Both the position numbers and the translations under genes were made by a program. Under the pieces are notes generated by a model, which searched no databases, was not told the DNA's origin, and saw only the letters and a program-made list of their open reading frames with translations. From the NCBI GenBank assembly GCA_002010305.1, contig MTND01000038.1, forward strand, positions 1 to 41,273: DNA of 41,273 bases, in the 5' to 3' direction. This document shows, in pieces, positions 8,443 through 23,283 of the stretch. Source of the DNA: Archaeoglobi archaeon JdFR-42 (lineage in GTDB: Archaea > Halobacteriota > Archaeoglobi > Archaeoglobales > JdFR-42). The stretch's first letter is position 1. Each line of letters begins with the position of its first letter.

Positions 8443-8454
8443 CCCCTCCTTCTA

Positions 8455-8468: not shown

Positions 8469-8488
8469 AGAAAAGAGGGTTTACTGGC

Positions 8489-8788: not shown

Positions 8789-8799
8789 GTTTCTTCCTC

Positions 8800-9087
8800 C
8801 TACTGTCTCTTCCACACCGCTCCGAGCTCCTTGAAATCGTAGTATGAGACAACGTAGTCTTTCCTGCTGTATCTCGGCTTTGATGTGGCTATTCTCACGT
8901 TCTTCATCTCCTGCCTTTTCTTTGCATTCTTGGCTATCACTTCAGCCTCTGATTTCGTGTCGCAGCCGATAACGACCTTGTTTATCTTTCCCTTGGCTTT
9001 TCCCCAACCACTCATGAACTCGTCGGTCATGGTAACGTAGTAGTTCTTTGTAGGAATCCTCCAGTATTTCCCGGTCTTTCTTGCCAT
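8800..9087 (-). CDS. small basic protein, paralogue of the 9639-9860 product
   Basis: 95 residues. The middle reads KVVIGCDTKSEAEVIAKNAKKRQEMKNVRIATSKPRY, then KDYVVSYYDF. This parallels the 9639-9860 product (VKTKAEAERVKNSVSKKPDVKKVIVRRL, then DYGVTLDKKWGVWVY): a strand, a KSEAE/KAEAE helix, a KNV/KKV strand, then an aromatic strand. The two look like diverged duplicates of one alpha/beta mini-domain. ATG start 4 bp downstream of the previous gene's stop. Function unknown. Confidence 0.65.
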   Translation of the reverse strand: MARKTGKYWRIPTKNYYVTMTDEFMSGWGKAKGKINKVVIGCDTKSEAEVIAKNAKKRQEMKNVRIATSKPRYSRKDYVVSYYDFKELGAVWKRQ

Positions 9088-9091
9088 GAAA

Positions 9092-9361
9092 TCACCTCAG
9101 AAGCTTGAAATCTCTCACGAAATTGAGAACAGACTCCTTTAACCCTCTCCTGTCTCTCGGAGAGATATATACCATCCTCTCAGGTCTCTTCGATGGATAG
9201 AGCCATAGCCTGTATCTCACGTTCCCTCCATTTGTTGTTCCCTCTTTCTGGGCAATGACTCTCACTGTTTTTCCATTCCTTGATACATCGAAGACTCTCG
9301 TTCCCGGTGCCGTCGAATAAGAAGAGACGAATATCTCGTTCTTCCTACCAGTCTTCGCCAT
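9092..9361 (-). CDS. small basic protein
   Basis: 89 residues from ATG 9361 (MAKTGRKNEIFVSSYS). The frame extends three codons further up, but the SD-like GGTAGGTGGTAGG lies just before this ATG. Strand-rich and basic (RVFDVSRNGKTVRVIAQKEG, YRLWLYPSKRPERMVYISPRDRRG). The N-terminal MAK.R. and high charge resemble the 58-residue protein at the head of the operon. No family recognised. Confidence 0.65.
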   Translation of the reverse strand: MAKTGRKNEIFVSSYSTAPGTRVFDVSRNGKTVRVIAQKEGTTNGGNVRYRLWLYPSKRPERMVYISPRDRRGLKESVLNFVRDFKLLR

Positions 9362-9388
9362 ACCTACCACCTACCTATCTTCAAAAAT

Positions 9389-9646
9389 CTACCTCACAAA
9401 CTCCACCTTGTCCCCAAAGAGCTCTGCTTTCCCGAAGAATCCGTAGTATTTCCCTCTCTTGTCGTAGAGCTCGAATCCTTTTCCTGCCCTCAAAACATAC
9501 CATCTCTTCCTCTTCCCTGCCACTCCTGCAAATCTGGTCGCTTCACTGTAAGCTGGTGTGAACTCACCCACGTAGATCCTGTAACCTCTCTTCTGGTATC
9601 TCTGAAGGGCTTTTGGAGGTCTTTTCATTAATTGCAGCTTAACCAC
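9389..9646 (-). CDS. small basic aromatic protein
   Basis: 85 residues from a GTG at 9646 preceded by AAGGAGGGG. The upstream ATG of the open frame lies inside the neighbouring gene and has no ribosome site. Rich in Arg, Lys, Tyr and Phe: RPPKALQRYQKRGYRIYVGEF, KRKRWYVLRAGKGFELYDKRGKYYGFFG. Strand repeats with basic turns suggest an all-beta mini-domain. Overlaps the upstream small gene by 8 bp. Function unknown. Confidence 0.65.
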   Translation of the reverse strand: MVKLQLMKRPPKALQRYQKRGYRIYVGEFTPAYSEATRFAGVAGKRKRWYVLRAGKGFELYDKRGKYYGFFGKAELFGDKVEFVR

Positions 9647-9860
9647 GGTATCCCCTCCTTGAGTAAACCCATACACCCCATTTCTTATCCAGAGTAACTC
9701 CATAATCCCTGTAAATCCTCTTTCCGAGCCTTCTGACGATCACTTTTTTAACATCCGGTTTCTTCGACACCGAGTTTTTTACCCTCTCTGCTTCAGCCTT
9801 TGTTTTCACCGGAATCAGATAGCCAGTTCCGTTCATTTCCTTGACAACAATCCCTTTCAC
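9639..9860 (-). CDS. small basic protein, KAEAE-type mini-domain
   Basis: 73 residues from a GTG at 9860 following GGAGGGATCACA. The order is strand (GTGYLIPVKT), helix (KAEAERVKNSVSKKPD), strand (VKKVIVRRLGKR), strand (KKWGVWVYS). It is the closest visible relative of the 8800-9087 product. The start GTG overlaps the stop of a possible 22-codon upstream gene (GTGA), a coupling arrangement. Function unknown. Confidence 0.65.
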   Translation of the reverse strand: MKGIVVKEMNGTGYLIPVKTKAEAERVKNSVSKKPDVKKVIVRRLGKRIYRDYGVTLDKKWGVWVYSRRGYRG

Positions 9861-9925
9861 TGTGATCCCTCCTCAGAAATCGCTGAAATGCAGTTCTTTC
9901 CTCTTTCTTTCTCAATTCCCAACAC
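9857..9925 (-). CDS. possible 22-residue peptide gene
   Basis: A short frame beginning GTG at 9925 after GGAGGTGAAGAA and ending with a TGA that overlaps the next gene's GTG start (GTGA). The strong ribosome site and overlap suggest translation. A competing frame from an ATG at 9996, directly after the HerA stop, runs through the same bases to 9793 (67 codons, CREVKKC motif) but overlaps the next real gene heavily. Only one of them is likely used. Confidence 0.3.
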   Translation of the reverse strand: MLGIEKERGKNCISAISEEGSQ

Positions 9926-9996
9926 TTCTTCACCTCCCTACAGGTCTTCTTCAAATTCAGCCCTTCCTGGCTTATTTCAACCAGAGAAGGACACAT

Positions 9997-11226
9997 TTAT
10001 CCAACTGGAGAGAGTCCTATTTTGATGATGTAGGGCCTTGTGGGCTCCAGAACATTTCCATAGATGCCCTCTCCCTTCCCTATGTCATCGGCAAGGTAGT
10101 AGAAGCTCACAAGATCGTAGAGATTGACAGAGAGAGTTTTCAGGAGCTTATTGAGCTTCGAATCAGGAATGTAGCCCAGGATAAACACTTCATCCACGTT
10201 TTCTATCACCACTTTCTCCATCGAATGAGGGGATTGAGTCTCCAAAAAGACTGTCCATCCGTATGATCTTGCCAGAACTGTTACTGCCCTGATTATGGCC
10301 TGTTTAGCTGGGTTCATGCCCTCCTCAGGGCAGTAGGTATGGGCTTCGGTAATCCCTATGAAGCTCCGGGTTCTCTTAAAATGCCGTTCCATCATGGTCA
10401 GAACTTGGGAGACTATGAACTGCTTTATCTCGTAGTCTCCTATATCCGACAGATCGATGATGTTGATGATCTCCCGATCTATGTAATCCAGAAACGTGTT
10501 ATCCCTTTCAGTCTCGATGAGGCTGTCGTATTCTAAAAGCTCGCAGAACCTCTCTACACTGGCCTGCATGGTTCTGAAATAGGGATCTTCTTCGTAGTTC
10601 TGCAAGATTTCATTGAGCTTTATCCTGAACCTCCGTATGTCCCTTCTTGATCTTACATCCCTCCATGCTCTTTCAATTATTCTATCAGCAATAGATTGAC
10701 CCATCTTCTTACCGATATAGGCCATCAGGGCTGAGTATTCCAGTTCCTGCAAAGGAATCTTGAAGTTCCTTCCTGGAACCAAATATCTCTGAACTGGCTT
10801 ACCATTGGATCTCAACCTCACCGGCTCCACGTTCATTTCCACCAGTCTTTCAGGAGAGGGATGTCTCAGGAAATCGAGATCCCCTCTCTTTTCCTGGAAT
10901 ACCACGATGGAATCATCCCTCGTGGTTCGATAGTGAGCCTGTACAAAGTTTCTGAGGGTGTTAGTTTTGCCTATGCCCTTTCCTGCCACCACTAAAACCA
11001 CTTTTCCTTCCTCTACCCCCCTCCTGCGGGGGTTGTAGTAGTAGGGTTGAGTCCAGAACCGTTTAGGAGAGATTTTATAGCCCAATCTGACTGAATAATC
11101 GCTTCCTCTCCTTTTGTGCTTAATATGGATGGGGAGCTCTTCCTCTTCATCGAAGAGCCTGATGGATGGTTCATACTCCTGGAAAGAAATTGAAGGAGTG
11201 TAGTCAAAGATCCCCATCACCCACAC
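9997..11226 (-). CDS. HerA/FtsK-superfamily ATPase
   Basis: About 409 residues. Walker A is GKGIGKTN at about residue 80, Walker B is the hydrophobic strand FIGIT ending in Glu-Ala-His (ITEAH), with a sensor-like FLETQSPHS further on. These mark the HerA/FtsK family of hexameric DNA or substrate pumps. No NurA partner is encoded nearby, so end-resection is unlikely. In a mobile element next to membrane and secreted proteins it more likely packages DNA or powers transfer or assembly (inference). The start is GTG 11226 or ATG 11217; both overlap the upstream gene's end by 14-23 bp. Confidence 0.82.
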   Translation of the reverse strand: MWVMGIFDYTPSISFQEYEPSIRLFDEEEELPIHIKHKRRGSDYSVRLGYKISPKRFWTQPYYYNPRRRGVEEGKVVLVVAGKGIGKTNTLRNFVQAHYRTTRDDSIVVFQEKRGDLDFLRHPSPERLVEMNVEPVRLRSNGKPVQRYLVPGRNFKIPLQELEYSALMAYIGKKMGQSIADRIIERAWRDVRSRRDIRRFRIKLNEILQNYEEDPYFRTMQASVERFCELLEYDSLIETERDNTFLDYIDREIINIIDLSDIGDYEIKQFIVSQVLTMMERHFKRTRSFIGITEAHTYCPEEGMNPAKQAIIRAVTVLARSYGWTVFLETQSPHSMEKVVIENVDEVFILGYIPDSKLNKLLKTLSVNLYDLVSFYYLADDIGKGEGIYGNVLEPTRPYIIKIGLSPVG

Positions 11227-11854
11227 ACCCTTCCTGGCCTATATTATATTCCGACGTAGCCTTCATTCCAGCCTTCACACTGTGAAGGCTCTCCAGAACT
11301 ATGAAAACCTCCTCTGGAATGGTTACATAGCGTAATCTTCTTTTTCCTGACCCTTTAATTCTCTTGGAGATTTTTAGCAAACCATTTTCCTCTAAAATCC
11401 TCTCATGATCGTAGATTGATTGGAGGTTTTTTCCCAGCTCATCTTTGAAGTCTGATGTGAAGCCTTTGCCTCCCTTCTCGAAAACAAAAGTGAGATAATC
11501 GTAGGTGGCCGGATTGCTCTCCTGCAACTGCTCTATTTTCTTGATGATCTCATTTTCACCTTCGAATAGCTCTTCTTCCTCGTCATCTTCCTCTTCCTCG
11601 ATTATGATGGGAGAGTTATCCCTCTCTTCGACAGTCTCTGCATCCTTCAGCATTGTCAGAACGGCCATGAAGCTCTTGTCCACTTCATCCATTGCTTCAA
11701 TTGCCTTCGTCAATACCTCTGCAAGATACTCCTTGTCGATGTATTCCTTTTCCAGCTCCTTTAATGCCCTGATTAGCTGGTTGTTCCTCAGTTCCATCGA
11801 TCTTGAGATCAGGATCTCTATCTTTTCAATAGGAATCTTGATGAATTTGCTCAT
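11204..11854 (-). CDS. acidic-linker protein with C-terminal winged helix
   Basis: 216 residues: a helical N-terminal half (about 1-80), a highly acidic linker (EEEEDDEEEE near residue 90), then a winged-helix-like segment (about 115-195; YDYLTFVFEKGGKGFTSDFKDEL, then ILEENGLLKISKRI and strand RRLRYVTIPEE). It may be a DNA- or ATPase-binding adaptor. It overlaps the upstream membrane protein by ATGA and the HerA gene by about 20 bp, so it is translated with them. Confidence 0.7.
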   Translation of the reverse strand: MSKFIKIPIEKIEILISRSMELRNNQLIRALKELEKEYIDKEYLAEVLTKAIEAMDEVDKSFMAVLTMLKDAETVEERDNSPIIIEEEEDDEEEELFEGENEIIKKIEQLQESNPATYDYLTFVFEKGGKGFTSDFKDELGKNLQSIYDHERILEENGLLKISKRIKGSGKRRLRYVTIPEEVFIVLESLHSVKAGMKATSEYNIGQEGCVGDGDL

Positions 11855-12753
11855 TCTTCCACCTCATAGGTTCTCTGCCTTAATTTGTTGATGGCATTCC
11901 TTATTTTGTCCTCGTGAACTTCCTGGGCTTCCCTGGGAATGAAATCATCCCTCTCCATCCCCATCCCTAAACCCAGAGGGGGAATGTAGTCTCTTCTATC
12001 CGGATAGATCCTGTATGGATTGGATTTGCTGGCCACCCTAACCAGATTCTCCGTCATTCTCAAAAGCTCGATGTTCAGGTCTCGCATCTTCTGGAAAGCG
12101 TGTCTGTAAGCCCTGTTTTCCTCGATAGTCAATTCAACCCGATCTGGTGGGATCACTCTGAAGGTGTGAGCATCCACCGACATGAGAGTGTGAGCATGGA
12201 TTATGATGTGCTGCTCTCCCACTGTAATGAGTTCCTCCGGGACTTCTATGCGGTGTTTCCCTCTTTTGAAAGCCTTTGCAAGAGCCTGCATTCCGTTTAC
12301 GAGAATGGAGTTATGCCTTGGATAGTAGTAGAAGACATAGAAGCCCTTGTGTCCGTCAAGGCTCAATCTGTCGTAGCTGTCTGTTTTACCCAGAACTGTT
12401 ACATTGCTACCCATTCCGGTTCTTTCATCTGTCCAGAGAATTAGAGTTTTCTTTAATTTGGTTAATCCCTTGTAGTTCTTCTTTAATCTCTTTACTTCCT
12501 CTTCCTTGATTGCCTCTCTTAACTCTTCCTCCACCGATTTCTTGACCTCCATGTCGATAAGCTTCTTCAATTCAGATTTGCTCATTTGAACTCCGTATTC
12601 CTCTGCAACCTTTTCAGCTTCCTGGATCTTCTTTTCCCTCTGCTTGCTCCTTTTTGCTATCAGATATACAGTCAGAGATATGGCAATAACAACTAAAAAT
12701 GTGAAGATGGTTGTAACCGCATCTCTTGAGATATCTAACCCCACTAATGCCAC
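11851..12753 (-). CDS. membrane-anchored coiled-coil protein
   Basis: 300 residues from a GTG at 12753, which overlaps the previous stop (TAGTG) behind GGAGGGAACG. One N-terminal TM (IFTFLVVIAISLTVYLIA) is followed by a basic, then helical region (about 35-95, KSELKKLIDMEVKKSVEEEL), a mixed alpha/beta domain (about 100-215) with repeated HI/IHAHT strands, and a C-terminal tail. The bulk should face the cytoplasm next to HerA. Family not recognised; a secretion or assembly platform component is a guess from context. Confidence 0.7.
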   Translation of the reverse strand: MALVGLDISRDAVTTIFTFLVVIAISLTVYLIAKRSKQREKKIQEAEKVAEEYGVQMSKSELKKLIDMEVKKSVEEELREAIKEEEVKRLKKNYKGLTKLKKTLILWTDERTGMGSNVTVLGKTDSYDRLSLDGHKGFYVFYYYPRHNSILVNGMQALAKAFKRGKHRIEVPEELITVGEQHIIIHAHTLMSVDAHTFRVIPPDRVELTIEENRAYRHAFQKMRDLNIELLRMTENLVRVASKSNPYRIYPDRRDYIPPLGLGMGMERDDFIPREAQEVHEDKIRNAINKLRQRTYEVEE

Positions 12754-13085
12754 TACGTTCCCTCCAGCTTGATCTTAACAATCCTTATGGCCTTCCACTC
12801 CAGGTAGAAGTAGGCAGCCAGAAACACATCCACCAATGAAAAGACCATCAGGAAGGCTGCTATCGTGTTGCCCTGTGCCACCAGATTCAGGTATTCAGGG
12901 TTGATGGCCTGGATCCTCTCTGAATAGCTCTGCGAGATTCCCACTGCGTGGTAGATCTGCCCTGCTATCAGCATCATTACCAAAGCATTGATCAGGAAAA
13001 TGGCCATGACTGCGAAAGGCTCTTTATCGCTTACCTTTTCCTCATTTCTTTCCTCATTTCTTCTTTTTAGATTAAACCCTACCAT
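12753..13085 (-). CDS. small membrane protein, two TM segments
   Basis: 110 residues. After a charged N-terminus (KRRNEERNEEKVSDKE) come two hydrophobic spans (PFAVMAIFLINALVMMLIAG and TIAAFLMVFSLVDVFLAAYF) separated by a roughly 35-residue loop, and a short basic tail. It overlaps genes on both sides by 1-14 bp. Function unknown; part of the membrane complex module. Confidence 0.7.
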   Translation of the reverse strand: MVGFNLKRRNEERNEEKVSDKEPFAVMAIFLINALVMMLIAGQIYHAVGISQSYSERIQAINPEYLNLVAQGNTIAAFLMVFSLVDVFLAAYFYLEWKAIRIVKIKLEGT

Positions 13086-13659
13086 AGAACCACCCCAGAA
13101 TAGTTACAAATACCAGAAAGCCCACAACAAGGTAAACCAGCTTCATTGCGGGATTTTCCTTCAGAAAAGCCTTTATCTGGTCTACTGATGTTGGTCTGTT
13201 CTTTAAATCCTGAACATCAGCTCCTATTGCCGATACCTGCTCCTGCAAAGACTGTAATCTGTTATTGGTCACCTTGACCTGCTGTCTGATTTCATCGGGT
13301 TTCATTGGCTCATAGACATCAGCCCTGTATTCCTTGGCCTGAAAGGTTTTTGTGCCGTAATCGAAGCTGTTTTCTGTTAGAGTCAGGTAGTCTATCCTTA
13401 CCTGTGGATCCGTAACTCTGATGATCCATTCCTGTGGTGTCTCTCCAACTATGAGCCCTCCTGTTACCTTTATCCTGTCTGCCATCGATTTTGGAAAGTA
13501 GATATGGCCACCTATGAACAAACTACCAGTGTATGTTCCGTTAAATGAGTATTTGATTTGGTTCTCCTGGCCGTTTACCGTTGCCATTGCCATAAATCCG
13601 ACAAAGGCAAGGAGAATCGTGTAGATCAACACTAACAACAACCAGGCCTTCCACTTCAT
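13072..13659 (-). CDS. secreted membrane-anchored protein with coiled coil
   Basis: 195 residues. An N-terminal signal or anchor (WLLLVLIYTILLAFVGFMA) is followed by an extracellular strand-rich domain (about 30-115), a coiled-coil segment (QVKVTNNRLQSLQEQVSAIGADVQDL), and a C-terminal TM (LVYLVVGFLVFVTILGWFYG). The layout resembles viral or S-layer-associated surface proteins. The ATG overlaps the TGA of the 44-codon gene upstream (ATGA). Confidence 0.72.
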   Translation of the reverse strand: MKWKAWLLLVLIYTILLAFVGFMAMATVNGQENQIKYSFNGTYTGSLFIGGHIYFPKSMADRIKVTGGLIVGETPQEWIIRVTDPQVRIDYLTLTENSFDYGTKTFQAKEYRADVYEPMKPDEIRQQVKVTNNRLQSLQEQVSAIGADVQDLKNRPTSVDQIKAFLKENPAMKLVYLVVGFLVFVTILGWFYGRV

Positions 13660-13790
13660 AGAATCCTCCTGCCGGTGTTTATGTCGATGATCCCTGGGCT
13701 GTCTCTCTCCTTGAGCTCCTCTACTGCTTCCCTAATCTTCCTCATTTCCTCTATTGCGAGTTCCTTAAACCTGCAATTACGACAGTTCAG
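13656..13790 (-). CDS. 44-residue CxxC protein with probable CTG start
   Basis: The frame reads LNCRNCRFKELAIEEMRKI and onward to GRRIL, a tiny helical protein with an N-terminal CRNC pair. No ATG, GTG or TTG exists at the front. A CTG at 13788-13790 lies behind GGAGGTGATAGC and overlaps the TGA of the upstream gene as CTGA. It sits exactly 18 nt below palindrome site 3, the same spacing as ATG and TTG starts elsewhere. The 3' end overlaps the next gene as ATGA. It may be a zinc or redox mini-protein. Confidence 0.6.
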   Translation of the reverse strand: MNCRNCRFKELAIEEMRKIREAVEELKERDSPGIIDINTGRRIL

Positions 13791-15271
13791 GCTATCACCT
13801 CCATTCTCTTTTCATGTGAAAAATTATTCATGGAGTAGGTGTTCTGGGTTAATTTCGGTAAGAATCCGAGCTTCCAGGCTATTTTCTCCCACCAGACTGG
13901 ATGGCTGATCAGGAGAATTCTGAATTTCTGTACTCCGATCGTTCCAGGTATGAAGACTATCTTTGATTTGCTCTCTCCCAGGTAGTTTTCAATGTAGAAC
14001 TGGCCATAGGTGGTATTCTCCTGGTGTTTCAGTATTGATTGAGCTTTGGTATTGGTTGAGTTGACCTCGTAGAGAATGGCATACAGCTCTTCCTTGTCTG
14101 TGGTGTTGTTCAGGTTGAAGTTGTATATGTCATAGCCTTGTGTGACAGTTGGAAGCAGGAGCTCTGCTCTCTTCTGCTTGATAAACGGTAGATCGAAGAT
14201 TATCAAGAACGGTTTTCTGACTGGAGTAAAATAGCTTGAGACCGTAATGTTTGCCTCATTGTTGTTGTTGATCGTCTCATCCACATCCGTGATGGATGCA
14301 AAGTTAGCAGGGTCTGAATACTTGTAGACCCTTAGATTGTCGAATTTTGCCAGATCATCCGAGTTCCTGGTTGTATACAACCCCAGAGAGCCAGATGCAT
14401 AGCTGGTATCCGTTACGGTTACAGAAGTCCCTCCTATATCTAACTCAAGTTTTGAGCCCTTGATCTTGGCAGTAATGTGATACCAAGTGTTTGGATTGAT
14501 GGTTTTTCCAGAAGTGATTAGATCTGCGGGGGAATCCGATGCCGATTTTTGAATGGCTATGTTGTTTCCGTAAAATCCGGCAACAAAGGTGTAATAGTTC
14601 TTGTTTACATCATCATATCTCCCCAGAATGCCACTTGATCCGAAGTCACCCGTAGTTAGCACATCCACTTCTGCTATGAAGTCAGTCAGGTTTACTGGCA
14701 GGATGGCTTTTGCTCTTTGTGGATTTCCAGAAATCTGAAGGACTCCCTCTCCTGAATTCCAAACCCACGGGCTTCCTCCACCATAAAGGGTATATCTGCT
14801 TGTTGTATCCGTGTCGAAGTTATCATACCACTCAAGGGTCTTTTCTGGGTTGTTGTATGTGGATTTTGCTGCCTTGGTGTTGCCGTATGCGATGTTCAAT
14901 TCTCTGCTCCCATCCGTTAGATTTACTTCGATTGTGGCTGTTTGGTTTACATAATCCCAGTTTTTTAGCCAGAAATGCATCTCTGATCCGGAATCGTTGA
15001 AAACTCTGATGTCATCTCCTGTAGATTGAACCAGACTCCAGAACTGCCCTGAACTGCCGGAAATCTTCAGATTATTTGTAACATTGTAAACTTCAATGGT
15101 TTGACCATTTATCACCACTCTATACTGAGCATGTTCTGCTGGTGGATTCGAAATGGTTATTTTCAGGTGTCTGGTGTATACGTTCCCATCTGAGTCTGTC
15201 CAGGCCGATGCTGTTCCTATTGATGCGATAACAACCAGTATGGCAATTAAATATCTCAATTTAAGCTCCAT
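13787..15271 (-). CDS. DUF2341 / LamG-like secreted surface protein
   Basis: 494 residues. A signal peptide (LRYLIAILVVIASIGTASA) is followed by a DUF2341-like domain (about 20-135; YRVVINGQT, FNDSGSEMHFWLKNWDYVNQTATIEV, NIAYGN) and a concanavalin-like jelly-roll region (about 150-310; WYHITAKIKGSKLELDIGG, SLGLYTTRNSDDLAKFDNLRVY). Archaeal adhesins and virus spike-like proteins use these folds to bind glycans or hosts. The C-terminal third (about 330-494) is strand-rich without an obvious TM. The 3' end contains palindrome site 3 inside the coding sequence. Cell attachment is the likely role (inference). Confidence 0.78.
   Translation of the reverse strand: MELKLRYLIAILVVIASIGTASAWTDSDGNVYTRHLKITISNPPAEHAQYRVVINGQTIEVYNVTNNLKISGSSGQFWSLVQSTGDDIRVFNDSGSEMHFWLKNWDYVNQTATIEVNLTDGSRELNIAYGNTKAAKSTYNNPEKTLEWYDNFDTDTTSRYTLYGGGSPWVWNSGEGVLQISGNPQRAKAILPVNLTDFIAEVDVLTTGDFGSSGILGRYDDVNKNYYTFVAGFYGNNIAIQKSASDSPADLITSGKTINPNTWYHITAKIKGSKLELDIGGTSVTVTDTSYASGSLGLYTTRNSDDLAKFDNLRVYKYSDPANFASITDVDETINNNNEANITVSSYFTPVRKPFLIIFDLPFIKQKRAELLLPTVTQGYDIYNFNLNNTTDKEELYAILYEVNSTNTKAQSILKHQENTTYGQFYIENYLGESKSKIVFIPGTIGVQKFRILLISHPVWWEKIAWKLGFLPKLTQNTYSMNNFSHEKRMEVIA
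13809..13822 (-). promoter_or_regulatory. element palindrome site 3
   Basis: TTTTCATGTGAAAA lying inside the last codons of the DUF2341-like gene and exactly 18 nt upstream of the CTG start of the 44-codon gene. Confidence 0.75.
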
Positions 15272-16610
15272 ACTCTCCCCTCCTGATCAGGTAAACCAGA
15301 AGAGTCAATCCAGCTATTGGAAGAGCATATTTCAGGTCTATGCTTATGCCTGGAGCCTGTGGCTCCTTGAGCTGGACATTTCCAGCTTCTACCACTGCTT
15401 TCGAGGCATTGATCATGCCGTGGACAACCCTGTTATCGGGATCTTTGATCGGGTCTGTGCTGTTGGCTAAAGCATCCTTAACGTTAGCAGAGTTTAGATT
15501 GGGATTGACCTGCTTCATTAATGCAACAACACCAGAAACGATGGGAGTGGCATAGGATGTCCCAGATCCTGTGGTTGTGGTTCCAAATCTGGTTAAGATG
15601 GTTATTTCAACCCCTGGAGCAGCTAAAAAGGCTCCCTTGTTGCTCCAGGATGCTACCTCTCCATACCTGTTTACTGCTCCCACACTTACTACTTCAGGGT
15701 AACCGGCTGGGTAAATGAGCTTGTCGTAGCCCTCGTTTCCTGCTGCTGCCACCAGTATAACCCCTTTGTTGTATAAAGTCTGGATTGCTGTGTGTTCTGC
15801 TGGAGAGTAGACAGGTTGTCCATAACTCATGCTCACAATGGAAACATTGTGCTGGACTGCCCAGTCCAGTCCATCTAAAACATCCGATAGTTTCCCTGCT
15901 CCAGAGTCATCCAGCACCTTTACTGCATAGTAGCTGGCATTGGGAGCTATGCCCTGGAACTGGTCATCTCCCTCTCCTGCCAGTAAGGCTGCCACTGTGG
16001 TTCCGTGGCCTTCTAAATCATTCGGATCCAGATCATCGTAGGCAAAATCATAACCACCCAAATAGTTGTCATCGAGATCTGGGAGCTTGTAATTGACTCC
16101 CGTATCCAGGATGGCAACAACAACTCCTTCACCGGTAATGTTGTTGTAGTGGACAATTGGAAGGCTGATCTGCCTTTGTGCTTCTGTATATCCTGCTTCC
16201 TGGAGTCTATATCTGATGTTAGGAAGCTGTATTTCAGAATTCTCAATCAGGTAAACCTCTCTGTCCTCTTCTATGAATTCAATGGGCTTCTGGCTGATTT
16301 CCTGGATCTGGGAGAAGTTTAGCTCTGCAACAACGTAGGGGATTACCTCTCCTTTTCTCTGGTAAGGGATGTTGTTCTCTCTCAACCATGCTTCTGTGGT
16401 GTTGTTGAGCAGAATTACCGTTCTGAACTTCTTGTATGGTTGTATGGTTGCCTTCCATGCCAGGGTCTTATCCACCTTGGGATTCCCAACCGGGATTGTG
16501 TTGGGATCAGGGGTTTTGATGCTGAAAACGGGATTAATTTGAGTAAAATAGAGAAATCCTGCCAGTGTTAAGCTGACGATTATGATCCCTGCTATCACTC
16601 TGTCGCTCAT
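15261..16610 (-). CDS. membrane-anchored subtilisin-like serine protease
   Basis: 449 residues. An N-terminal TM (VIAGIIIVSLTLAGFLYF) precedes an inhibitor-I9-like propeptide (about 55-120) and the S8 catalytic domain: Asp in VAILDTGVNY, His in EGHGTTVAALLAG, the oxyanion Asn in AAAGNEG, and Ser in GSGTSYATPIVSGVVAL. A C-terminal TM (ALPIAGLTLLVYLI) follows, so the protease is anchored at the cell or particle surface. It could mature the neighbouring surface proteins or help exit through the S-layer (inference). Overlaps the next gene by 11 bp and the previous by ATGA. Confidence 0.92.
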   Translation of the reverse strand: MSDRVIAGIIIVSLTLAGFLYFTQINPVFSIKTPDPNTIPVGNPKVDKTLAWKATIQPYKKFRTVILLNNTTEAWLRENNIPYQRKGEVIPYVVAELNFSQIQEISQKPIEFIEEDREVYLIENSEIQLPNIRYRLQEAGYTEAQRQISLPIVHYNNITGEGVVVAILDTGVNYKLPDLDDNYLGGYDFAYDDLDPNDLEGHGTTVAALLAGEGDDQFQGIAPNASYYAVKVLDDSGAGKLSDVLDGLDWAVQHNVSIVSMSYGQPVYSPAEHTAIQTLYNKGVILVAAAGNEGYDKLIYPAGYPEVVSVGAVNRYGEVASWSNKGAFLAAPGVEITILTRFGTTTTGSGTSYATPIVSGVVALMKQVNPNLNSANVKDALANSTDPIKDPDNRVVHGMINASKAVVEAGNVQLKEPQAPGISIDLKYALPIAGLTLLVYLIRRGEYGA

Positions 16611-16918
16611 ACCCTACCTCCGAGACTGGCTATCTTGTTGCTGATGACCCCAAACCAGGGATACTGACTGACTAACCAGATCCATGCGGGATTGATGAAG
16701 TAGTAGCAGAGCAGGAAATTGATTGCAGTTCCAAATACGAGAGTGGCAACCGTGGAAATCAGAGAAAGAGACCTGAATGCCCATCTCACCACGAAGAACT
16801 CTATAACCAGCCATATCAGGACTACTGGAGTTGATAGACCGATTCCCTGGGCTATCTTGTATATGAACTGGCCTACATATCCGATCACGATCCCAAAAAA
16901 GATCGTCACTGGCTCCAT
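16607..16918 (-). CDS. small polytopic membrane protein
   Basis: 103 residues with about three hydrophobic spans (ITIFFGIVIGYVGQFIY-like N-terminal span, VVLIWLVIEFFVVRWAF, LISTVATLVFGTAINFLLCYYF). No enzymatic motif. The ATG follows a GTGAGGGAATGG stretch that overlaps a degenerate palindrome (site 4); its stop overlaps the protease start (ATGA). It may be a pore or scaffold of the same membrane complex; function unknown. Confidence 0.68.
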   Translation of the reverse strand: MEPVTIFFGIVIGYVGQFIYKIAQGIGLSTPVVLIWLVIEFFVVRWAFRSLSLISTVATLVFGTAINFLLCYYFINPAWIWLVSQYPWFGVISNKIASLGGRV

Positions 16919-16924
16919 TCCATT

Positions 16925-16938
16925 CCCTCACATGAAAA
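16925..16938 (-). promoter_or_regulatory. element palindrome site 4 (degenerate)
   Basis: CCCTCACATGAAAA: one half matches the consensus, the other is diverged. It lies 6 nt from the start of the small membrane-protein gene. Confidence 0.45.
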
Positions 16939-16951
16939 AAGAAAGGAGGGA

Positions 16952-19900
16952 TCAGAAGATCCACCGCAGAATGCCCACGATCACTGCCAGAGCTATGAGA
17001 ACGATGGCTATTGCGTAGATCAGTGTGTCCACGGTTGATATGCCCAGAAGTGGATAGCTCTCTGCTAAAGAGCCTGCTATGTCTCCGAGAATTCCTCCTA
17101 TGATCGGAATCCTGTCTAACAGACTGCCAGATCCAGTGTCTCCTGTAAAGGTCTCATTGCCCACCGTTACGTAGATGGTCTGAGTTGTGCCTTCTGTGGT
17201 CTCAGCATAGACAGAGAAGGTTCCATTCTGTTCGAAGGTGTGCACGTATCCGATCCTTCCGAACAAACCAGTTCCCAATATGCCACCGATTTTAGCTGTA
17301 ACCCCGACAGGAGTTCCATTGACGAAGATCTGAGCTCCTGAAAACCTGTTCCAGTCCCATATACTGGCCACTGAATCCTGTCTGGCTACCTCAAACTCCA
17401 CTTTCTGATTCTTTTTGACGGTGATGTTGCCGATGACGAAGCTGTCCGCGTATCTCGTTCCAGTGAGCTTGCCCTCTGATATGGCCGGTCTTGCCAAAAG
17501 GACTATTGCATTCGGGTTGTTCGGATCCACCGCATCCTTGATCGTTATGGTTATGGTGTCGGCCATTCCGTTCCACTCTGCTATGATTGTGTGTTGCCCT
17601 GGCTGCTGGAAGTCATACGTGAGTTTGGGGAAGAACCAGCCCGATGTCTCTCCTATGGGCTGATCGTCAAGGGTTATGCTCGCTCCTGAAAGCAGGGTTC
17701 CGGAGCTGTCTACTACCTCTATGTTGTGCTTGCCCTTGTATAGTTCTATGTTATCCGCATCATACCCATCCACTCTGACGGTTATTGAGGTTACAGTGGG
17801 CTCCTTGGTGTCTGTCTGGTTGTTGTCGTTCAGGTCTCCTGCGGGCTTGAGAACTACTGTTAAGGAGGTATCTGCCGTTACATTCACGTATTTGCTCAAT
17901 GGGAGGTATTTATTCGAAGGATCAGCTATGACTATGTGATGTGTGCCGGATGGAACTACCAGGATCGCTTCCCCATCTGAGTTGGTGATCTTCTGTTCAA
18001 CCGTTACCCCGTTATTGTCCCTGATGACTGCAATACCTGATAAGGCAGTTCCCTGCGGGTTCTGAACCTTTACCGTGAGGTTTAGATTGCCATTGTCGGT
18101 TGGCTGCTTGTCCTTGAGGCTCTGCAAGACTGTAATTAGCAGTTCTCCTGTTTGCTGACCCTGAACTACTGCATAGATCTTGTGCTGTCCTGGCTGGTTG
18201 AAGGAATACTTGAAGGCCGGGTTGAACCATCCTCCTGTCGTGCCTGCGTAGTTGCCATCGATGTAGATCATGGCATCGCTTACCGTGTCGACAATCTGCC
18301 CTCCAGAGAGCTTGTAGACCTTGAAGGTGACCGATCCTCCCTGATATAACGTGGTTTTGTCAGCAAATAGCTTATACTGATAGCTCTGGCCAGTGTTCGG
18401 ATCCGTAATGGGTTGTGTTCCCGGGTAATTACCTGTTTCATTGGTTCCTCCCTGAACGGGAGTTGCATTGCCTAAAACTTCTATGCTGGCCTGCTGGCTC
18501 TTTACTGAGTTATACACCGCATGGATGTAGTGTGTGCCAGAAGAAGTGATCTGTAATTCTGCGTAGGGCTCTGTATCCACGAATGGGAGCCACCAGAGGA
18601 AAGACCAGAAAGAGTGCTTCTGTGTGGTCTTGCCGGTGGGCTGTCCGTCAAGGTAGATCTCCGCTCCTGTAACGTAGCTGTCAAACCACCAGCTCTTCTT
18701 CTCTCTTACGTATATTTTTACGGTGTCTCCCTCATTGATTGAGTTAGAGGAGAGCTCCACGTAATACTTGCTGTTAGGATCTCCATAGACTGGTTCTGTG
18801 GTGTTATTTCCTGTTCCTCCATTGTTCCCTCCACCATTAGCTGGAGTCCCATACACCTTGTAAAAGGGTGGGCTCACGTCATCCTCGTAGAGCAGGTTTC
18901 CATTGCTGTCTGTGATTGTTACATGGTATGTTAAGCTCGTGTTTAAAGTTGTGATCTCAAAGTAACCGTCCAGATCGGTGTTTATGGTGGTCTCTTCGTC
19001 CTGTCCTATGGAGTTGTAGATTATCCCAGGATTGGTCTGAGGTAGGCCGTCGATGAACGGAATTGTAACCTTGAGCTCATTCCCCATAGAGTCATAGACT
19101 GGATTGGCATTCAGGTCAAACACTTGGAAGGTGTAATTTGATGTGGGTGTCCATCCCGATTGAGAATCGAGCCCTGTGATGTTTATAACTCCATTGGCAT
19201 CTGTGGCTGATGATGATATGTAGTTCATTCCCCAGGGGTTGGTTACCTTGATTAGAGCATTGGAGAGGGGTTGTCCATCCTTATACACGACCAGGGTTAT
19301 ATTGCCCACTCCTGAGGTTGTATTCCCTGAATAGGATGGAGCAGAATAGCTAATCAGATGCTGGATCTTCAGATTTGCTTTATAAACCGCTTTCCCTCCC
19401 TGGTCATAGACATACCCGAAGTATTTGTTTGGAATTACTTGCAGGTAATCCAGAACCTCTAACCGTGGATCGTAGAGGGTCACTTTTAGCTTGATCGGGA
19501 ACTTATCGGGCATTGAGGTAAGCTGGCTCAAATCGTATCCACTTGCCACGTTGGAGACCCACACCGTTCCGTTTTTATCTAAAATGTCTATTCGGGGATT
19601 CGGAGAGCCCGAATAAGAGAGCATGTTGCCCTTGCTGTTTATGTCCTCGATCGTTATGTCCCTTGAAAGGAGGGTTCCCGTTAAGATCTCCTTGTAGTAT
19701 GCCTTGTGTGTCCAGTAGTACTGCTCATAAGCCCCCGATACCTCTATGAAATCCGTGATCTTGTTCAGCATCACGACCTTCGGGGACTCGGTATTGGAGA
19801 CCGTTACCTGCCCGAATGTCTGCATGACTCCATCTGCATCCCTGTATTTGATTGTGAAGGTGTAGGAGGGCAAATTGGCCTGCTGTAACTGTAACTGGGT

Positions 19901-20167
19901 TACGTAGACATACCCCTCCGGAGGGTATATAGTCCAGTATCCCCCGTCACTCCCACCGGTAACCGTTTTCAGGGTATCTCCAAGGCTGTTTTGAACGAGC
20001 TGACTCGCAGAGCTCCAGGTTATGTTGGTCACATTGACCCAGTTTCCGTTAGTTGTAGGATCTGTGGAGAAGTCATCGTATAACGCAACCGATGCTGAAG
20101 CTGTAGTAATAGAGGCTATCAAGGCAGTGAGTAGAATCAAAGAAAAAAAGAGAGTTCTGGAAGTCAT
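16952..20167 (-). CDS. giant surface protein with repeated Ig-like domains
   Basis: 1071 residues. A signal peptide (FFSLILLTALIASITTASA) is followed by an N-terminal domain of about 270 residues, carboxypeptidase-regulatory-like beta domains (about 285-430 and 700-780; NALIKVT, TDANGVINITGL), a Gly/Asn linker near 445, and a C-terminal TM (IYAIAIVLIALAVIVGILRWIF). Four copies of one Ig-like unit occur near residues 500, 629, 825 and 942, each reading GA.IY.DG.P.G followed by an aromatic stretch, then G.H.IYA. It is the largest element protein and probably the main spike, fibre or adhesin. Start ATG behind GGAGG; first big gene of the module. Confidence 0.85.
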   Translation of the reverse strand: MTSRTLFFSLILLTALIASITTASASVALYDDFSTDPTTNGNWVNVTNITWSSASQLVQNSLGDTLKTVTGGSDGGYWTIYPPEGYVYVTQLQLQQANLPSYTFTIKYRDADGVMQTFGQVTVSNTESPKVVMLNKITDFIEVSGAYEQYYWTHKAYYKEILTGTLLSRDITIEDINSKGNMLSYSGSPNPRIDILDKNGTVWVSNVASGYDLSQLTSMPDKFPIKLKVTLYDPRLEVLDYLQVIPNKYFGYVYDQGGKAVYKANLKIQHLISYSAPSYSGNTTSGVGNITLVVYKDGQPLSNALIKVTNPWGMNYISSSATDANGVINITGLDSQSGWTPTSNYTFQVFDLNANPVYDSMGNELKVTIPFIDGLPQTNPGIIYNSIGQDEETTINTDLDGYFEITTLNTSLTYHVTITDSNGNLLYEDDVSPPFYKVYGTPANGGGNNGGTGNNTTEPVYGDPNSKYYVELSSNSINEGDTVKIYVREKKSWWFDSYVTGAEIYLDGQPTGKTTQKHSFWSFLWWLPFVDTEPYAELQITSSGTHYIHAVYNSVKSQQASIEVLGNATPVQGGTNETGNYPGTQPITDPNTGQSYQYKLFADKTTLYQGGSVTFKVYKLSGGQIVDTVSDAMIYIDGNYAGTTGGWFNPAFKYSFNQPGQHKIYAVVQGQQTGELLITVLQSLKDKQPTDNGNLNLTVKVQNPQGTALSGIAVIRDNNGVTVEQKITNSDGEAILVVPSGTHHIVIADPSNKYLPLSKYVNVTADTSLTVVLKPAGDLNDNNQTDTKEPTVTSITVRVDGYDADNIELYKGKHNIEVVDSSGTLLSGASITLDDQPIGETSGWFFPKLTYDFQQPGQHTIIAEWNGMADTITITIKDAVDPNNPNAIVLLARPAISEGKLTGTRYADSFVIGNITVKKNQKVEFEVARQDSVASIWDWNRFSGAQIFVNGTPVGVTAKIGGILGTGLFGRIGYVHTFEQNGTFSVYAETTEGTTQTIYVTVGNETFTGDTGSGSLLDRIPIIGGILGDIAGSLAESYPLLGISTVDTLIYAIAIVLIALAVIVGILRWIF

Positions 20168-20186
20168 TGTAAGACCTCCCTGGCTC

Positions 20187-20582
20187 TTACGAGCCGGTGA
20201 AGTAGAACTTCTCGGTTGTTGTTGTGTCCTTGGTGATGGTTACGTTAGTCTTGCTCAGGATTGTGCCGTTATAGTCTGCTATCACGTCATAGCTCCCGAC
20301 AGGAACCTTGTTGAAGGTTATAACCGACACATTCTGGCCATTTTCAGTGGTTATAGCTGTTTGCCCTGTAAATTCAGTTCCGAGAATCGAGACCGACACT
20401 CCCTTGAGCGGGCTTGTAGTTGTTGAGTTGTTGATGGTGGTGTTCTGATAGGTGTATACTTTCAGTGTCCCGGTGTCCTGGAAGAAGGGTATGTCGTCAA
20501 GATACCCACCATACCAGGCATAGCCCACACTGCCTATAACCACTGCCGTAAGAACGAATATTGCTGCTGTCCTTGCTTCCAT
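20187..20582 (-). CDS. membrane-anchored PEGA/carboxypeptidase-regulatory-like protein
   Basis: 131 residues from ATG 20582, whose A is the last base of the upstream TGA (TGATG). An N-terminal TM (AAIFVLTAVVIGSVGYAWYGG) leads to one beta-sandwich domain: LKGVSVSILGTEF, TTENGQNVSVITFNKVPVGSYDVIADYNG. The fold matches small regulatory-like domains also present in the 1071-residue neighbour, so the two may assemble together. The longer open frame to 20669 lies inside the upstream gene and is rejected. Confidence 0.75.
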   Translation of the reverse strand: MEARTAAIFVLTAVVIGSVGYAWYGGYLDDIPFFQDTGTLKVYTYQNTTINNSTTTSPLKGVSVSILGTEFTGQTAITTENGQNVSVITFNKVPVGSYDVIADYNGTILSKTNVTITKDTTTTEKFYFTGS

Positions 20583-21184
20583 CAGCCCTTCACCTCCACT
20601 GCTATCAGAGCTGCCAGCAGTCCCAGCAGGATCATCCACAACCACCAGGGCAGTGGCAGAGAATCCCACCAGCCGGCGGTGGCCTGTGAGGTTATTGAGG
20701 CAGTCTCATAGTTGCTCTTCACAGTCATTCCCTGAGTAACGGCAGAAGCATCAGGGCTTGTCGTGAACTGGATCTGCTTGAACCAGGTAAAGCCCTTGCC
20801 CACGTTTATGGCATTGCCGGGAACCAGAATCCTTACCGTATCCTGGTTCACCTTATCTATGTCTATTCTGATTCCAGAACCGGTCTTGAAGACTTTAGCA
20901 TCGCCGTAAACCCACTCCTTCTGATAGCTGAAGCTCGATGGAACTATTGTGATGTGGGCATCCACGGGATAGCTGCTCGTTTTTTCCACTGTCAGGATGA
21001 TCTGGTTAAAACCGTTCTCGCTGGGCTTGTCAGGGGTTATGATGGTCAATCTGGCCTGCTTGGTCAGAATGGTGTCTGTGGCTCCCAGGGCTGGAGAAAT
21101 AGTCAGTATCGCCAGCATCAGCACCACTGAAACCATCACTATTTTCGAACCTACCAAACTTCTCCTACCTACATTTCCTCGCAT
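20582..21184 (-). CDS. secreted protein with C-terminal membrane anchor
   Basis: 200 residues. Signal peptide (KIVMVSVVLMLAILTISPALG, cleavage near GATD), an extracellular strand-rich domain (about 35-170; IILTVEKTSSYPVDAHITIV), and a C-terminal TM (LWMILLGLLAALIAVEVKG) right after a Trp/Pro-rich stretch. A good ribosome site, TGAGGAGG, precedes the ATG. The topology (signal peptide plus tail anchor) is shared with the other surface proteins of the operon, consistent with a virion or vesicle envelope component (inference). Confidence 0.75.
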   Translation of the reverse strand: MRGNVGRRSLVGSKIVMVSVVLMLAILTISPALGATDTILTKQARLTIITPDKPSENGFNQIILTVEKTSSYPVDAHITIVPSSFSYQKEWVYGDAKVFKTGSGIRIDIDKVNQDTVRILVPGNAINVGKGFTWFKQIQFTTSPDASAVTQGMTVKSNYETASITSQATAGWWDSLPLPWWLWMILLGLLAALIAVEVKG

Positions 21185-21197
21185 TTATCAAACCTCC

Positions 21198-21374
21198 TCA
21201 AAAAATTCCCAAAAACTTCTTCTTTCCTACTTTCTTGCTCTTCTTCCTATTCCCTCCTACCTTCCTCTTCGATTTCTGCATCTCACTCCTTGGCTTTACA
21301 TACAGATAGCCATCTTTGGCAAAGTAGAAGTCTCCCTTTTTGTATCCAGGAATTTTCATAACTCTTTTAGCCAT
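21198..21374 (-). CDS. 58-residue highly basic protein
   Basis: A short gene at the head of the leftward operon: MAKRVMKIPGYKKGDFYFAK, then DGYLYVKPRS, then a Lys/Arg-rich tail (KSKRKVGGNRKKSKKVGKKK) ending FLGIF. The ATG at 21374 follows GAGGTGATAGG. The first half is strand-rich and the tail could bind DNA or a membrane surface. It resembles the basic proteins at 8-10 kb in composition. Function unknown. Confidence 0.7.
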   Translation of the reverse strand: MAKRVMKIPGYKKGDFYFAKDGYLYVKPRSEMQKSKRKVGGNRKKSKKVGKKKFLGIF

Positions 21375-21461
21375 GTCTGCCTATCACCTCGCTTTTTTTC
21401 CTGTAAATATCCTAAAATGAGCCCTGAAACTTCTGAAACTCTGGAATAACTGAAGAAAAGA

Positions 21462-21481
21462 AGGTAGGGAAATTCCTACCT
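21462..21481 (-). promoter_or_regulatory. leader hairpin (possible attenuator)
   Basis: AGGTAGG-GAAATT-CCTACCT, a perfect 7-bp stem with a 6-nt loop in the leader of the large leftward operon. It overlaps the stop of the 16-codon leader frame. No long T-run follows on the transcribed strand. Confidence 0.45.
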
Positions 21482-21526
21482 GTCTTCGCCGTTCCTACGT
21501 GACTTCGCATCCCCACCATGTCCCAT
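21476..21526 (-). CDS. possible 16-residue leader peptide
   Basis: ATG at 21526 begins MGHGGDAKSRRNGEDR and ends in the hairpin at 21462-21481. A TATA box lies about 24 nt upstream, so the mRNA could start at this ATG (leaderless). Position and coupling to a hairpin suggest a regulatory leader; there is no conservation evidence. Confidence 0.3.
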   Translation of the reverse strand: MGHGGDAKSRRNGEDR

Positions 21527-21544
21527 GCCCCGTGAGAGGGGTTA

Positions 21545-21556
21545 CTATATATTTTG
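21545..21556 (-). promoter_or_regulatory. TATA box of the main leftward operon
   Basis: Minus strand AAAATATATAGT. The gene train from 21374 down to 7186 follows without another clear TATA-plus-gap of this size, so this is the best main promoter. Confidence 0.5.
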
Positions 21557-21582
21557 GAATAGAAGTATATAATTCTTTTGTT

Positions 21583-21597
21583 AGAATTCCGAATTCT
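21583..21597. promoter_or_regulatory. 15-bp palindrome upstream of main promoter
   Basis: AGAATTC-C-GAATTCT, a perfect inverted repeat about 30 bp upstream of the operon TATA box: a likely operator or activator site. Confidence 0.5.
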
Positions 21598-21625
21598 ATT
21601 TAGTAAAGCAACCGACTATTTACAG

Positions 21626-21639
21626 TTTTCATGTGAAAA
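21626..21639 (-). promoter_or_regulatory. element palindrome site 5
   Basis: TTTTCATGTGAAAA just past the stop of the 68-codon gene, about 75 bp upstream of the main operon TATA box. Confidence 0.72.
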
Positions 21640-21646
21640 TTAAAGA

Positions 21647-21853
21647 CTATGCACCGGATAAAAGAGATTCCAGGTAGCTCTCAGCATCTCTAATCGAGTT
21701 AAAATTACCAAAATGATCAAACACTCTACTTTTCGGAAAATATCCAATGAGAGAGTAGAGTTCATCACCATTGGAGCTCAGGCAAATTATGGAAAAGATT
21801 GCCTTTTCCTTTTCCATTATTTTACCGATAGTCTTTGCTACTCTCACTTGCAT
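21647..21853 (-). CDS. 68-residue hypothetical protein
   Basis: A short protein, MQVRVAKTIGKIMEKEKAIF, then SIICLSSNGDELYSLIGYFP, with a C-terminal helix (DAESYLESLLSG). It looks like a small alpha/beta domain. It lies alone between the divergent toxin-antitoxin promoter and the main operon promoter. Family not recognised; a regulator of the nearby promoters would fit its position, but nothing in the sequence proves it. Confidence 0.55.
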   Translation of the reverse strand: MQVRVAKTIGKIMEKEKAIFSIICLSSNGDELYSLIGYFPKSRVFDHFGNFNSIRDAESYLESLLSGA

Positions 21854-21954
21854 GAGTGATCCCCACTATCAAAATGTTGGAGAATGTTTAAAGGTTGAGA
21901 GTGGAATGAAAGTAAATTATTGTCCCACCCACAAGAGTTAAATATTTACAACAT

Positions 21955-21968
21955 TTACAATATTGTAA
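21955..21968. promoter_or_regulatory. operator overlapping antitoxin start
   Basis: TTACAATATTGTAA, a perfect 14-bp palindrome whose last base is the first base of the antitoxin ATG. A TATA-like TTAAATATT lies about 25 bp upstream, so the transcript is probably leaderless and autorepressed. Confidence 0.6.
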
Positions 21969-22153
21969 TGACAGCAACTAAACGAATTCCAGTATCAGAA
22001 CCAATCTGGAGAGAACTATCAGAGCTTAAACAACCTGGACAGACTTTTGACCAGCTCCTCAGTGAGATCATAGAAAGAGAAAAGAAATACAGGCTCATCC
22101 AGGACATGAAGAGAATAGAGGAGGAAGAGGAGTTCGTGGAGCTGGAACTTTGA
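21968..22153 (+). CDS. antitoxin, RHH-type
   Basis: 61 residues from ATG 21968: MTATKRIPVSEPIWRELSEL, then QTFDQLLSEIIEREKKYRL and an acidic tail (EEEEEFVELEL). The strand plus two-helix pattern is that of ribbon-helix-helix antitoxins, and the acidic tail would wrap the toxin. It likely binds the palindrome over its own start. Its TGA overlaps the toxin TTG start. The upstream part of the open frame is inside the promoter and is not used. Confidence 0.78.
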   Translation: MTATKRIPVSEPIWRELSELKQPGQTFDQLLSEIIEREKKYRLIQDMKRIEEEEEFVELEL

Positions 22154-22431
22154 CTTACAAAGTGTTGATAAGTAAAAAAGCTCTTAAATTTCTTAACTCC
22201 CTTCCTGAAAAAAGTCAGCGAATTGTAAGAAATAAGCTCAAAATTCTACAGGAAGATCCATACCCTAGCAAGAGGGGGGATAAAGAAAAATTAACCTTGC
22301 CAGATTATGAGCTTTATAGAATGCATATCGCCAGAACTTTTACGGTATTTTACAGGATACGTGGTAACGAAGTAAAAATACTAGATCTCATGACCATTGA
22401 GATGGCACATAAAAAATATGGTAGATTGTAG
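22150..22431 (+). CDS. RelE/ParE-family toxin
   Basis: 93 residues, usual RelE size. TTG start at 22150 overlapping the antitoxin stop. Family features: YKVLISKKALKFLNSLPEKSQRIVRNKL helices, ILQEDPYPSKRGDKEKL, then the central strands YELYRMHIARTFTVFYRIRGNEVKILDL with the conserved Arg residues, and a C-terminal AHKKYGRL. Most relatives cleave ribosome-bound mRNA. The operon is one of few rightward units in this half of the element and probably stabilises it. Confidence 0.88.
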   Translation: MTYKVLISKKALKFLNSLPEKSQRIVRNKLKILQEDPYPSKRGDKEKLTLPDYELYRMHIARTFTVFYRIRGNEVKILDLMTIEMAHKKYGRL

Positions 22432-22448
22432 CTCTTACTCTCCACTCT

Positions 22449-22799: not shown

Positions 22800-22808
22800 T
22801 ATATCACC

Positions 22809-23282: not shown

Positions 23283-23283
23283 A

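Follow-up and report, generated by a model that had tools for sequence, protein, structure and literature searches.

The plasmids of the pT26-2 family have been described as confined to Thermococcales and Methanococcales and as carrying 12 conserved proteins without relatives elsewhere, whose role has only been guessed at (PMC6972569, accessible text). In the pR1SE elements of haloarchaea a subtilisin is a core gene, and its product was found in all size fractions of the vesicle proteins (PMC10818511, accessible text). The Archaeoglobi virus that was described first is pleomorphic, has a VP4-like fusogen and lies at a transfer RNA (tRNA) gene (PMC10919331, accessible text). Our literature search found no paper mentioning both pT26-2 and Archaeoglobi. 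Here we analyse a stretch of DNA from Archaeoglobi archaeon JdFR-42 (GenBank assembly GCA_002010305.1, contig MTND01000038.1), referred to as the window, which is the whole contig of 41,273 bases in a genome of 2.15 Mb. A train of genes at 9997-21374 forms the core module of a mobile element integrated in an Archaeoglobi genome, and this element looks like a member of a so far unrecognised family building its own transfer apparatus. On balance we are inclined to the view that the element encodes its own membrane-bound DNA-transfer apparatus and is probably a distant relative of pT26-2.

The train consists of 12 minus-strand genes, with 7 of the 11 junctions overlapping by 1-23 bases and the remaining four being gaps of 13, 19, 33 and 127 bases. 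An initial annotation, made from the DNA letters only, had described a co-directional overlapping train, and its open reading frames (ORFs) exist on the minus strand as listed there; the train alone is not the whole element, being a module within 5869-37809. The genes designated here by letters are given below, together with a conserved gene 3' of the ATPase gene.

20582..21184, minus strand: A, 200-amino-acid (aa) protein with a signal peptide and a C-terminal transmembrane (TM) segment
20187..20582, minus strand: B, 131-aa protein with an N-terminal hydrophobic segment
16952..20167, minus strand: C, 1071-aa beta-domain surface protein with a signal peptide and a C-terminal TM segment, fast-changing
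16607..16918, minus strand: E, small two-TM protein (hydropathy)
15261..16610, minus strand: F, subtilase with a hydrophobic segment at either end (PF00082, E 9.6e-50)
13787..15271, minus strand: D, DUF2341 or concanavalin-like surface protein with an N-terminal signal (PF10102, E 1.1e-11; Laminin_G_3, E 0.0011, below cut-off)
13072..13659, minus strand: G, protein with N- and C-terminal hydrophobic segments, a conserved ectodomain and a coiled-coil-like stretch
12753..13085, minus strand: H, small two-TM protein (hydropathy)
11851..12753, minus strand: I, protein with one N-terminal TM segment and a soluble domain, probable t26-15p counterpart and proposed membrane tether of the ATPase
11204..11854, minus strand: J, candidate regulator with a winged helix by eye and without a Pfam match
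9997..11226, minus strand: K, HerA-type ATPase, possible t26-14p counterpart (Walker A motif and predicted fold)
8155..8442, minus strand: L, conserved 95-aa protein (70-71% identity in sister elements E107 and E102, 53% in E149)

The HerA-type ATPase that had been proposed for the train is borne out by the Walker A motif of K (VVAGKGIGKTN) and by its predicted structure, a HerA fold (predicted local distance difference test score, pLDDT, 70.5; predicted template modelling score, pTM, 0.75) with HerA 4d2i as the best Foldseek match (E 5e-12). Using hhalign, we compared profiles of 13 protein families, 12 of which have a member in the window, with 14 targets from the pT26-2 plasmids (pT26-2, pGE2 and pMEFER01) and 18 pAMT11 proteins; the resulting E values are those for one pair and not for a database. 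K matched t26-14p at 97.5% (E 7.6e-12, score 91.1) and I matched t26-15p at 93.3% (E 2.6e-7), and all pairs besides K, I and the subtilases stayed at or below 19.5%. The two partners are neighbours in pT26-2, and K and I are one gene apart here. Reverse profile searches were run over 4297 ORFs from the loci compared in this analysis, which are not a random background. In these, five of the six element ATPases (E 4.9e-11 to 2.6e-8) came directly after the members of the t26-14 profile; the best non-self matches of the t26-15 profile were protein I of the window (E 6.9e-5) and of E141 (E 5.3e-4). Among 200 decoy ORFs compared with I, the best reached 40.0% and 26.1% (231-aa ORFs at SBDS loci) and the next 3.9%. 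K and I thus probably correspond to the pT26-2 pair t26-14p/t26-15p, a distant kinship that rests on the pair. The pT26-2 family also resembles the present element in having a long membrane and surface gene train with a HerA-type ATPase, and a tyrosine integrase. It differs in its hosts, Thermococcales and Methanococcales, whereas the elements described here lie in Archaeoglobi, in genomes that share their order or class with that of the window, and in the anchored subtilase found here, the accessible text of PMC6972569 mentioning no protease, subtilisin or peptidase.

The catalytic D, H and S residues of F are invariant in all five element copies, and the two-TM subtilisin of the initial annotation is a genuine PF00082 protein, although in the window the C-terminal hydrophobic segment appears only at a hydropathy threshold of 1.6 and is absent at 1.7; four sister copies show it at both. 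At the threshold of 1.6, segments at both ends occur in 5/5 element copies, and none of 16 other subtilases has one in its last 60 residues. S8 matches at E 1e-10 or better are present in 35 of the 59 genomes of the class, the element copies scoring 714-856 bits (n=5), against 246 for the best of the others. A tree was made of 22 rows (the five element copies, 16 of 45 other S8 places, and pAMT11); in it the element copies form one clade with support of 100/100, within which the window copy is a long branch. Since they form a single clade and are doubly anchored, the subtilisin is a trait of the module. The pAMT11 subtilisin falls outside this clade and, from the sequences, seems to have been recruited separately.

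By eye, pAMT11 (TKV1 group) has a similar order of surface proteins, subtilisin, small TM proteins, a TM-plus-soluble protein, an ArsR-type protein and an ATPase. Only the subtilases of the two match by profile (99.9%), the other pAMT11 proteins, as single-sequence targets, being unmatched; K gave 2.5% with the pAMT11 ATPase beside the subtilisin, a single-sequence target of low power. In pAMT11 a serine resolvase is annotated and no tyrosine integrase. The core of the pR1SE/apHPV elements, likened here by published gene content, comprises a large beta-rich protein, a subtilisin-like S8 protease, an S-layer/Big6-like protein and a VirB4/HerA-like ATPase (PMC10818511). The S8 subtilisin and the HerA-type ATPase are both present in our module; the apHPV genes differ in forming two clusters split by a variable region and have been reported from haloarchaea only. 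Four haloarchaeal S8 plasmid loci considered as pR1SE relatives (H14, H27, H34 and H46) were without such a module in PLSDB's incomplete annotation, in which a fifth locus, H5, is unannotated. A membrane-anchored protease, which had been thought unusual for such a gene set, is therefore not so, given the core subtilisin of the pR1SE-type elements (PMC10818511) and the preprosubtilisin of pAMT11.

The ATPase was searched in 246 genomes of the phylum, which gave 97 at E 0.001 or better. Only five close relatives were found besides the window's own (48-51% identity, 372-397 bits), and the rest scored at most 29.3 bits. A full-length ATPase is present in 6 of the 59 Archaeoglobi genomes, the window's included, with a broken fragment in one more. 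The hosts of the sister elements are four Archaeoglobus, Archaeoglobaceae or Archaeoglobi metagenome-assembled genomes and Ca. Mnemosynella biddleae. The module occurs in E107, E102, E193 and E141 with its order kept except for D, which is located elsewhere (the E141 contig of 7.5 kb ends inside the module, and its order is comparable only that far). Its recurrence in related genomes, with only D displaced, shows that the module is more than a chance assembly of genes. The Ca. Mnemosynella biddleae element (L043) is reduced to integrase, ATPase and the 95-aa protein L, without the surface module. Between E107 and E102, 11 gene pairs were compared, D and H being left out, and 10 of these have a ratio of nonsynonymous to synonymous substitution rates (dN/dS) of 0.03-0.28, which indicates purifying selection; the values are rough in four of the ten, where dS is above 1. 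Two further HerA-like loci (G025 and G124) were rejected as elements after no other module profile matched in 19.9 kb around each. Outside the order, the I profile had weak matches in one genus (E 0.0017-0.0093), which are attributed to chance, the one checked being an SBDS protein.

The position of the element in the chromosome is marked by the following features.

5807..5881, plus strand: tRNA-Asn (gtt), integration target, with the core of the left attachment site (attL) at 5869-5880
5979..7184, plus strand: tyrosine integrase (PF00589, E 6.1e-25), with a weak C-terminal zinc-ribbon match
37798..37809, plus strand: core of the right attachment site (attR), a 12-base repeat of the tRNA 3' end in the same orientation as 5869-5880
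37913..38114, plus strand: decayed copy of the integrase 5' region just past attR, by sequence match to the integrase start

All five scanned genes left of 5.8 kb are chromosomal by Pfam (two aminotransferases, lumazine synthase, a JAB-domain protein and a TIM-barrel protein). The integrase remnant beyond attR aligns at 67% over 218 columns (E 5e-17), with a raw score of 50 compared to at most 18 in 500 shuffles. The 12-base repeat is weak by itself, but with the adjoining remnant it gives the pattern expected from a decayed second copy at the same site. The repeat of the tRNA 3' end at 37798 and the remnant right behind it place the element at about 5869-37809 (about 31.9 kb). Among the four stretches searched, a second att repeat was found only in the window and none in E102, E149 or E107. 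The integrase directly adjoins a tRNA gene in all three elements showing both, namely the window (Asn), E102 (Met) and E149 (Phe), and in E193 its homologue is at the contig end.

Hydropathy shows a hydrophobic segment at both ends of A, C and G. The proteins that the initial annotation called tail-anchored are better named signal-peptide plus C-terminal-anchor proteins; its label of Ig-repeat protein for C is acceptable but loose, the matches being weak ones of beta-sandwich type (CarboxypepD_reg, E 6.3e-7, below its cut-off; PEGA, E 1.6e-5, above its cut-off). For B, a start at 20582 is more likely than the ORF 20187-20669, judging from relatives of 131-132 aa. C is only 29% identical between E107 and E102, with substitutions saturated, whereas the other 10 module proteins compared keep 66-92%; its C-terminal part is the best conserved in this pair (0.40-0.47 compared to 0.17-0.28), which is less clear in other pairs. 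In the D-like proteins of E102 and E107 a 100-residue stretch near the C-terminus is 85% identical, and the remainder is absent in E107. These patterns suggest that the surface proteins have exchangeable outer parts.

A possible mechanism can be put together from these proteins. Protein I would hold a K hexamer of HerA type at the inner face of the membrane, its soluble domain being expected to face the cytosol because the N-terminal helix is followed by a basic stretch, and the pump would push the element out of the cell once it is excised. A surface assembly for release and contact may be formed by A, B, C, D and G, in which the fast-changing C and perhaps the lectin-like D would touch the next cell. 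F, doubly anchored outside the cell, could process the surface proteins or open the surface layer (S-layer) locally, much as a murein hydrolase does in bacterial conjugation. By analogy, delivery would most likely take place in membrane vesicles coded by the element, as reported for pR1SE, or by contact.

A number of results weigh against a transfer apparatus related to pT26-2. Five of the seven pT26-2 core proteins are without a detectable counterpart and the gene order differs; in hhalign, no pair involving t26-5p, 6p, 7p, 11p or 13p rose above 17.5% (C with t26-5p). A general HerA profile matched K at 96.1% (E 3.4e-9, score 74.5), near the t26-14p match, and the match of t26-14p itself to general HerA was 94.8%. 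When the K profile was used, the pT26-2 (16.0 bits) and pGE2 (19.5) ATPases fell below general HerA proteins (up to 30.5), which among the t26-14p proteins only that of pMEFER01 exceeded (37.7), and with the t26-14 profile a DUF87 protein (L088, E 2.4e-7) did better than the Mnemosynella ATPase (E 1.7e-6). As to I, the t26-15p proteins reached E 0.025, 0.35 and 6.3 with the I profile, weaker than the chance SBDS matches (best 3.3e-4); the match of I to t26-15p falls to 43.1% without the window sequence and is 21-57% for single t26-15p sequences; and protein I of E107, E102 and E193 scored E 0.05-1.1 with the t26-15 profile. The predicted model of I was too poor for a structure search (pLDDT 51). 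On the side of transfer, the pR1SE ATPase ORF25 was undetected in its vesicles (PMC10818511, accessible text). None of the 64 spacers of one array of clustered regularly interspaced short palindromic repeats (CRISPR) in the host matches the element (longest 17 columns), and the same spacers had no convincing match to the sister elements or to the plasmids and viruses used for comparison, the longest, to pMEFER01, spanning 20 columns at 90%. The resemblance to pT26-2 noted in the initial annotation has some substance in the matches of K and I, which the controls leave at probable.

A contact-dependent, conjugation-like element, with K and I as its coupling or translocation engine and the surface proteins as a mating junction, is a rather unlikely alternative. 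The HerA superfamily includes conjugation ATPases, and the fold of K, the possible tether I and the large C, so variable between E107 and E102, would suit such a junction. The pT26-2 protein t26-14p has also been placed in a superfamily that includes conjugation ATPases (PMC6972569, accessible text). It speaks against conjugation that no relaxase, coupling-protein or pilin family was detected in 30 window proteins scanned against Pfam (short ORFs were left out) and that K has no significant plasmid relative, a search with a sister ATPase at E up to 10 giving 11 weak partial plasmid matches. In the same Pfam scans there was no homology to a pilus, archaellum or chromosomal secretion locus, which would have contradicted a mobile module, no dedicated search having been made for it.

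We consider it unlikely that the element is the provirus of an undescribed enveloped pleomorphic virus, in which A, C, D and G would form the envelope, K would package the genome and F would mature the spike. An integrase, a packaging-type ATPase and membrane proteins with ectodomains would fit a provirus, as does the pleomorphic first Archaeoglobi virus at its tRNA gene (PMC10919331, accessible text), and the Thalassapleoviridae (AvPV1, ApPV1 and GacPV1) share with the element the Archaeoglobi hosts, an integrase and membrane proteins, AvPV1 also lying at a tRNA gene. However, a VP4 fusogen profile of these three viruses gave at most 2.3% for any family here in sequence-profile comparison, while its positive controls, HRPV1 VP4 (67%) and AvPV1 ORF5 (81%), were recovered; a pleolipovirus relationship is thus rejected for the fusogen at the profile level. 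VP3 (at most 2.3%, no positive control) and the pleolipovirus nucleoside triphosphatase (NTPase; 14.1% with K over 19 columns) were also unmatched, a weak test in that the NTPase profile also missed the HRPV1 and His2 NTPases. K has no relative in IMG/VR or INPHARED, and the 31.9 kb of the element compare with 7-18 kb for those viruses. As had been stated, no capsid, portal or tail gene is recognisable: a PHROGs scan of 20 proteins gave no convincing family; in the structural category, the ATPase matched a terminase profile weakly (E 1.4e-4), and tape-measure and head profiles had weak matches to the coiled coil of 35144-37006 (best 4.5e-5). Of the virus or vesicle module in the initial annotation, the mobile element stands, as do its DNA pump and its surface proteins; the word virus is not supported, there being no sequence-profile match to a VP4-like fusogen. 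It is improbable that the module is a host surface or secretion system that was domesticated and is retained in an integrated element to the host's benefit: integrated copies that lack replication genes are reported to keep the pT26-2 core genes, and growth to be slower once TKV2/TKV3 is lost (PMC6972569, accessible text), but the distribution of the module is patchy (6/59 genomes for the full-length ATPase) and it lies beside an integrase and a tRNA gene with an att repeat.

If the element does encode a transfer apparatus, we would tentatively go further, with little confidence, and suggest that a single type of capsidless, self-encoded DNA-delivery machine serves the elements of Thermococcales, Methanococcales, Archaeoglobi and haloarchaea alike. 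It would have a HerA-type pump, a t26-15p-like tether, a mosaic surface assembly and a subtilase recruited at least twice independently for S-layer opening or maturation. The Archaeoglobi family would be the link, because it joins the pT26-2-like pump-and-tether pair with the pR1SE-type protease. A family in a third group of hosts that probably keeps the pump and its partner, with different surface proteins, would show which parts of the pT26-2 core matter most, and this family has the protease known from pR1SE, a plasmid reported to travel in its own vesicles. Even without a link to pT26-2, the module tells which few proteins to seek in preparations of vesicles or particles, and it offers a testable explanation of how DNA of an archaeal element might cross the S-layer.

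The element carries a repeated palindrome, TTTCANNTGAAA, with 8 copies in the window compared to 0.14 expected, all of them within the element, and 25 places genome-wide.

5942, 8456, 13810, 21627, 25359, 26756, 28847 and 33075 (starts; together 5942..33086): copies of TTTCANNTGAAA

Four copies lie 13-25 bases 5' of an ORF start, including those of the integrase and L, and another precedes the start of the train by 252 bases. Elsewhere in the same genome (C1:64284-64868; L120:9285-9869) is a further J gene, 63% identical, with TTTCANNTGAAA 14 bases before it. The simplest reading is that J binds TTTCANNTGAAA, the probable operator of one regulator, and J would probably switch the module together with the integrase through these sites. 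The palindrome was not found in the stretches of the five sister elements, which is expected if their J differs. The second J copy has a tRNA-Glu gene about 5 kb away and another integrase at 16 kb, a CRISPR array lying between, and its locus is perhaps another element sharing or borrowing the regulator. This array, the source of the 64 spacers above, has 65 repeats (L120, about 10.2-15.2 kb, C1) and adjoins genes that are cas-like by eye.

The rest of the element includes the following genes.

7754..8242, minus strand: DUF772-domain protein (PF05598, E 9.5e-7), also in E107 and E102
24480-25190: DUF5131 protein (phrog_2045, E 4.4e-61; two PADLOC candidate-system models also match)
26778..28334, minus strand: AAA+ ATPase of the accessory region (PF00004, E 6.2e-32; phrog_8638, E 2e-145)
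29356-30090: serine recombinase (PF00239), besides the tyrosine integrase
30392..31852, plus strand: ShosA/ShosT-like pair (DprA-like and phosphoribosyltransferase-like), cargo (PADLOC, E 2e-73 and 8.9e-26)
35144..37006, minus strand: 620-aa protein with a C-terminal coiled coil, in the variable region, with relatives in E193 and (short match) E102

Defence systems are also carried by haloarchaeal vesicle plasmids (PMC10818511, accessible text), to which the ShosA/ShosT-like cargo may be compared. Outside the element, at 38190-41273, a large NosD-type right-handed beta-helix protein with a bacterial immunoglobulin (Ig) domain runs off the contig end.

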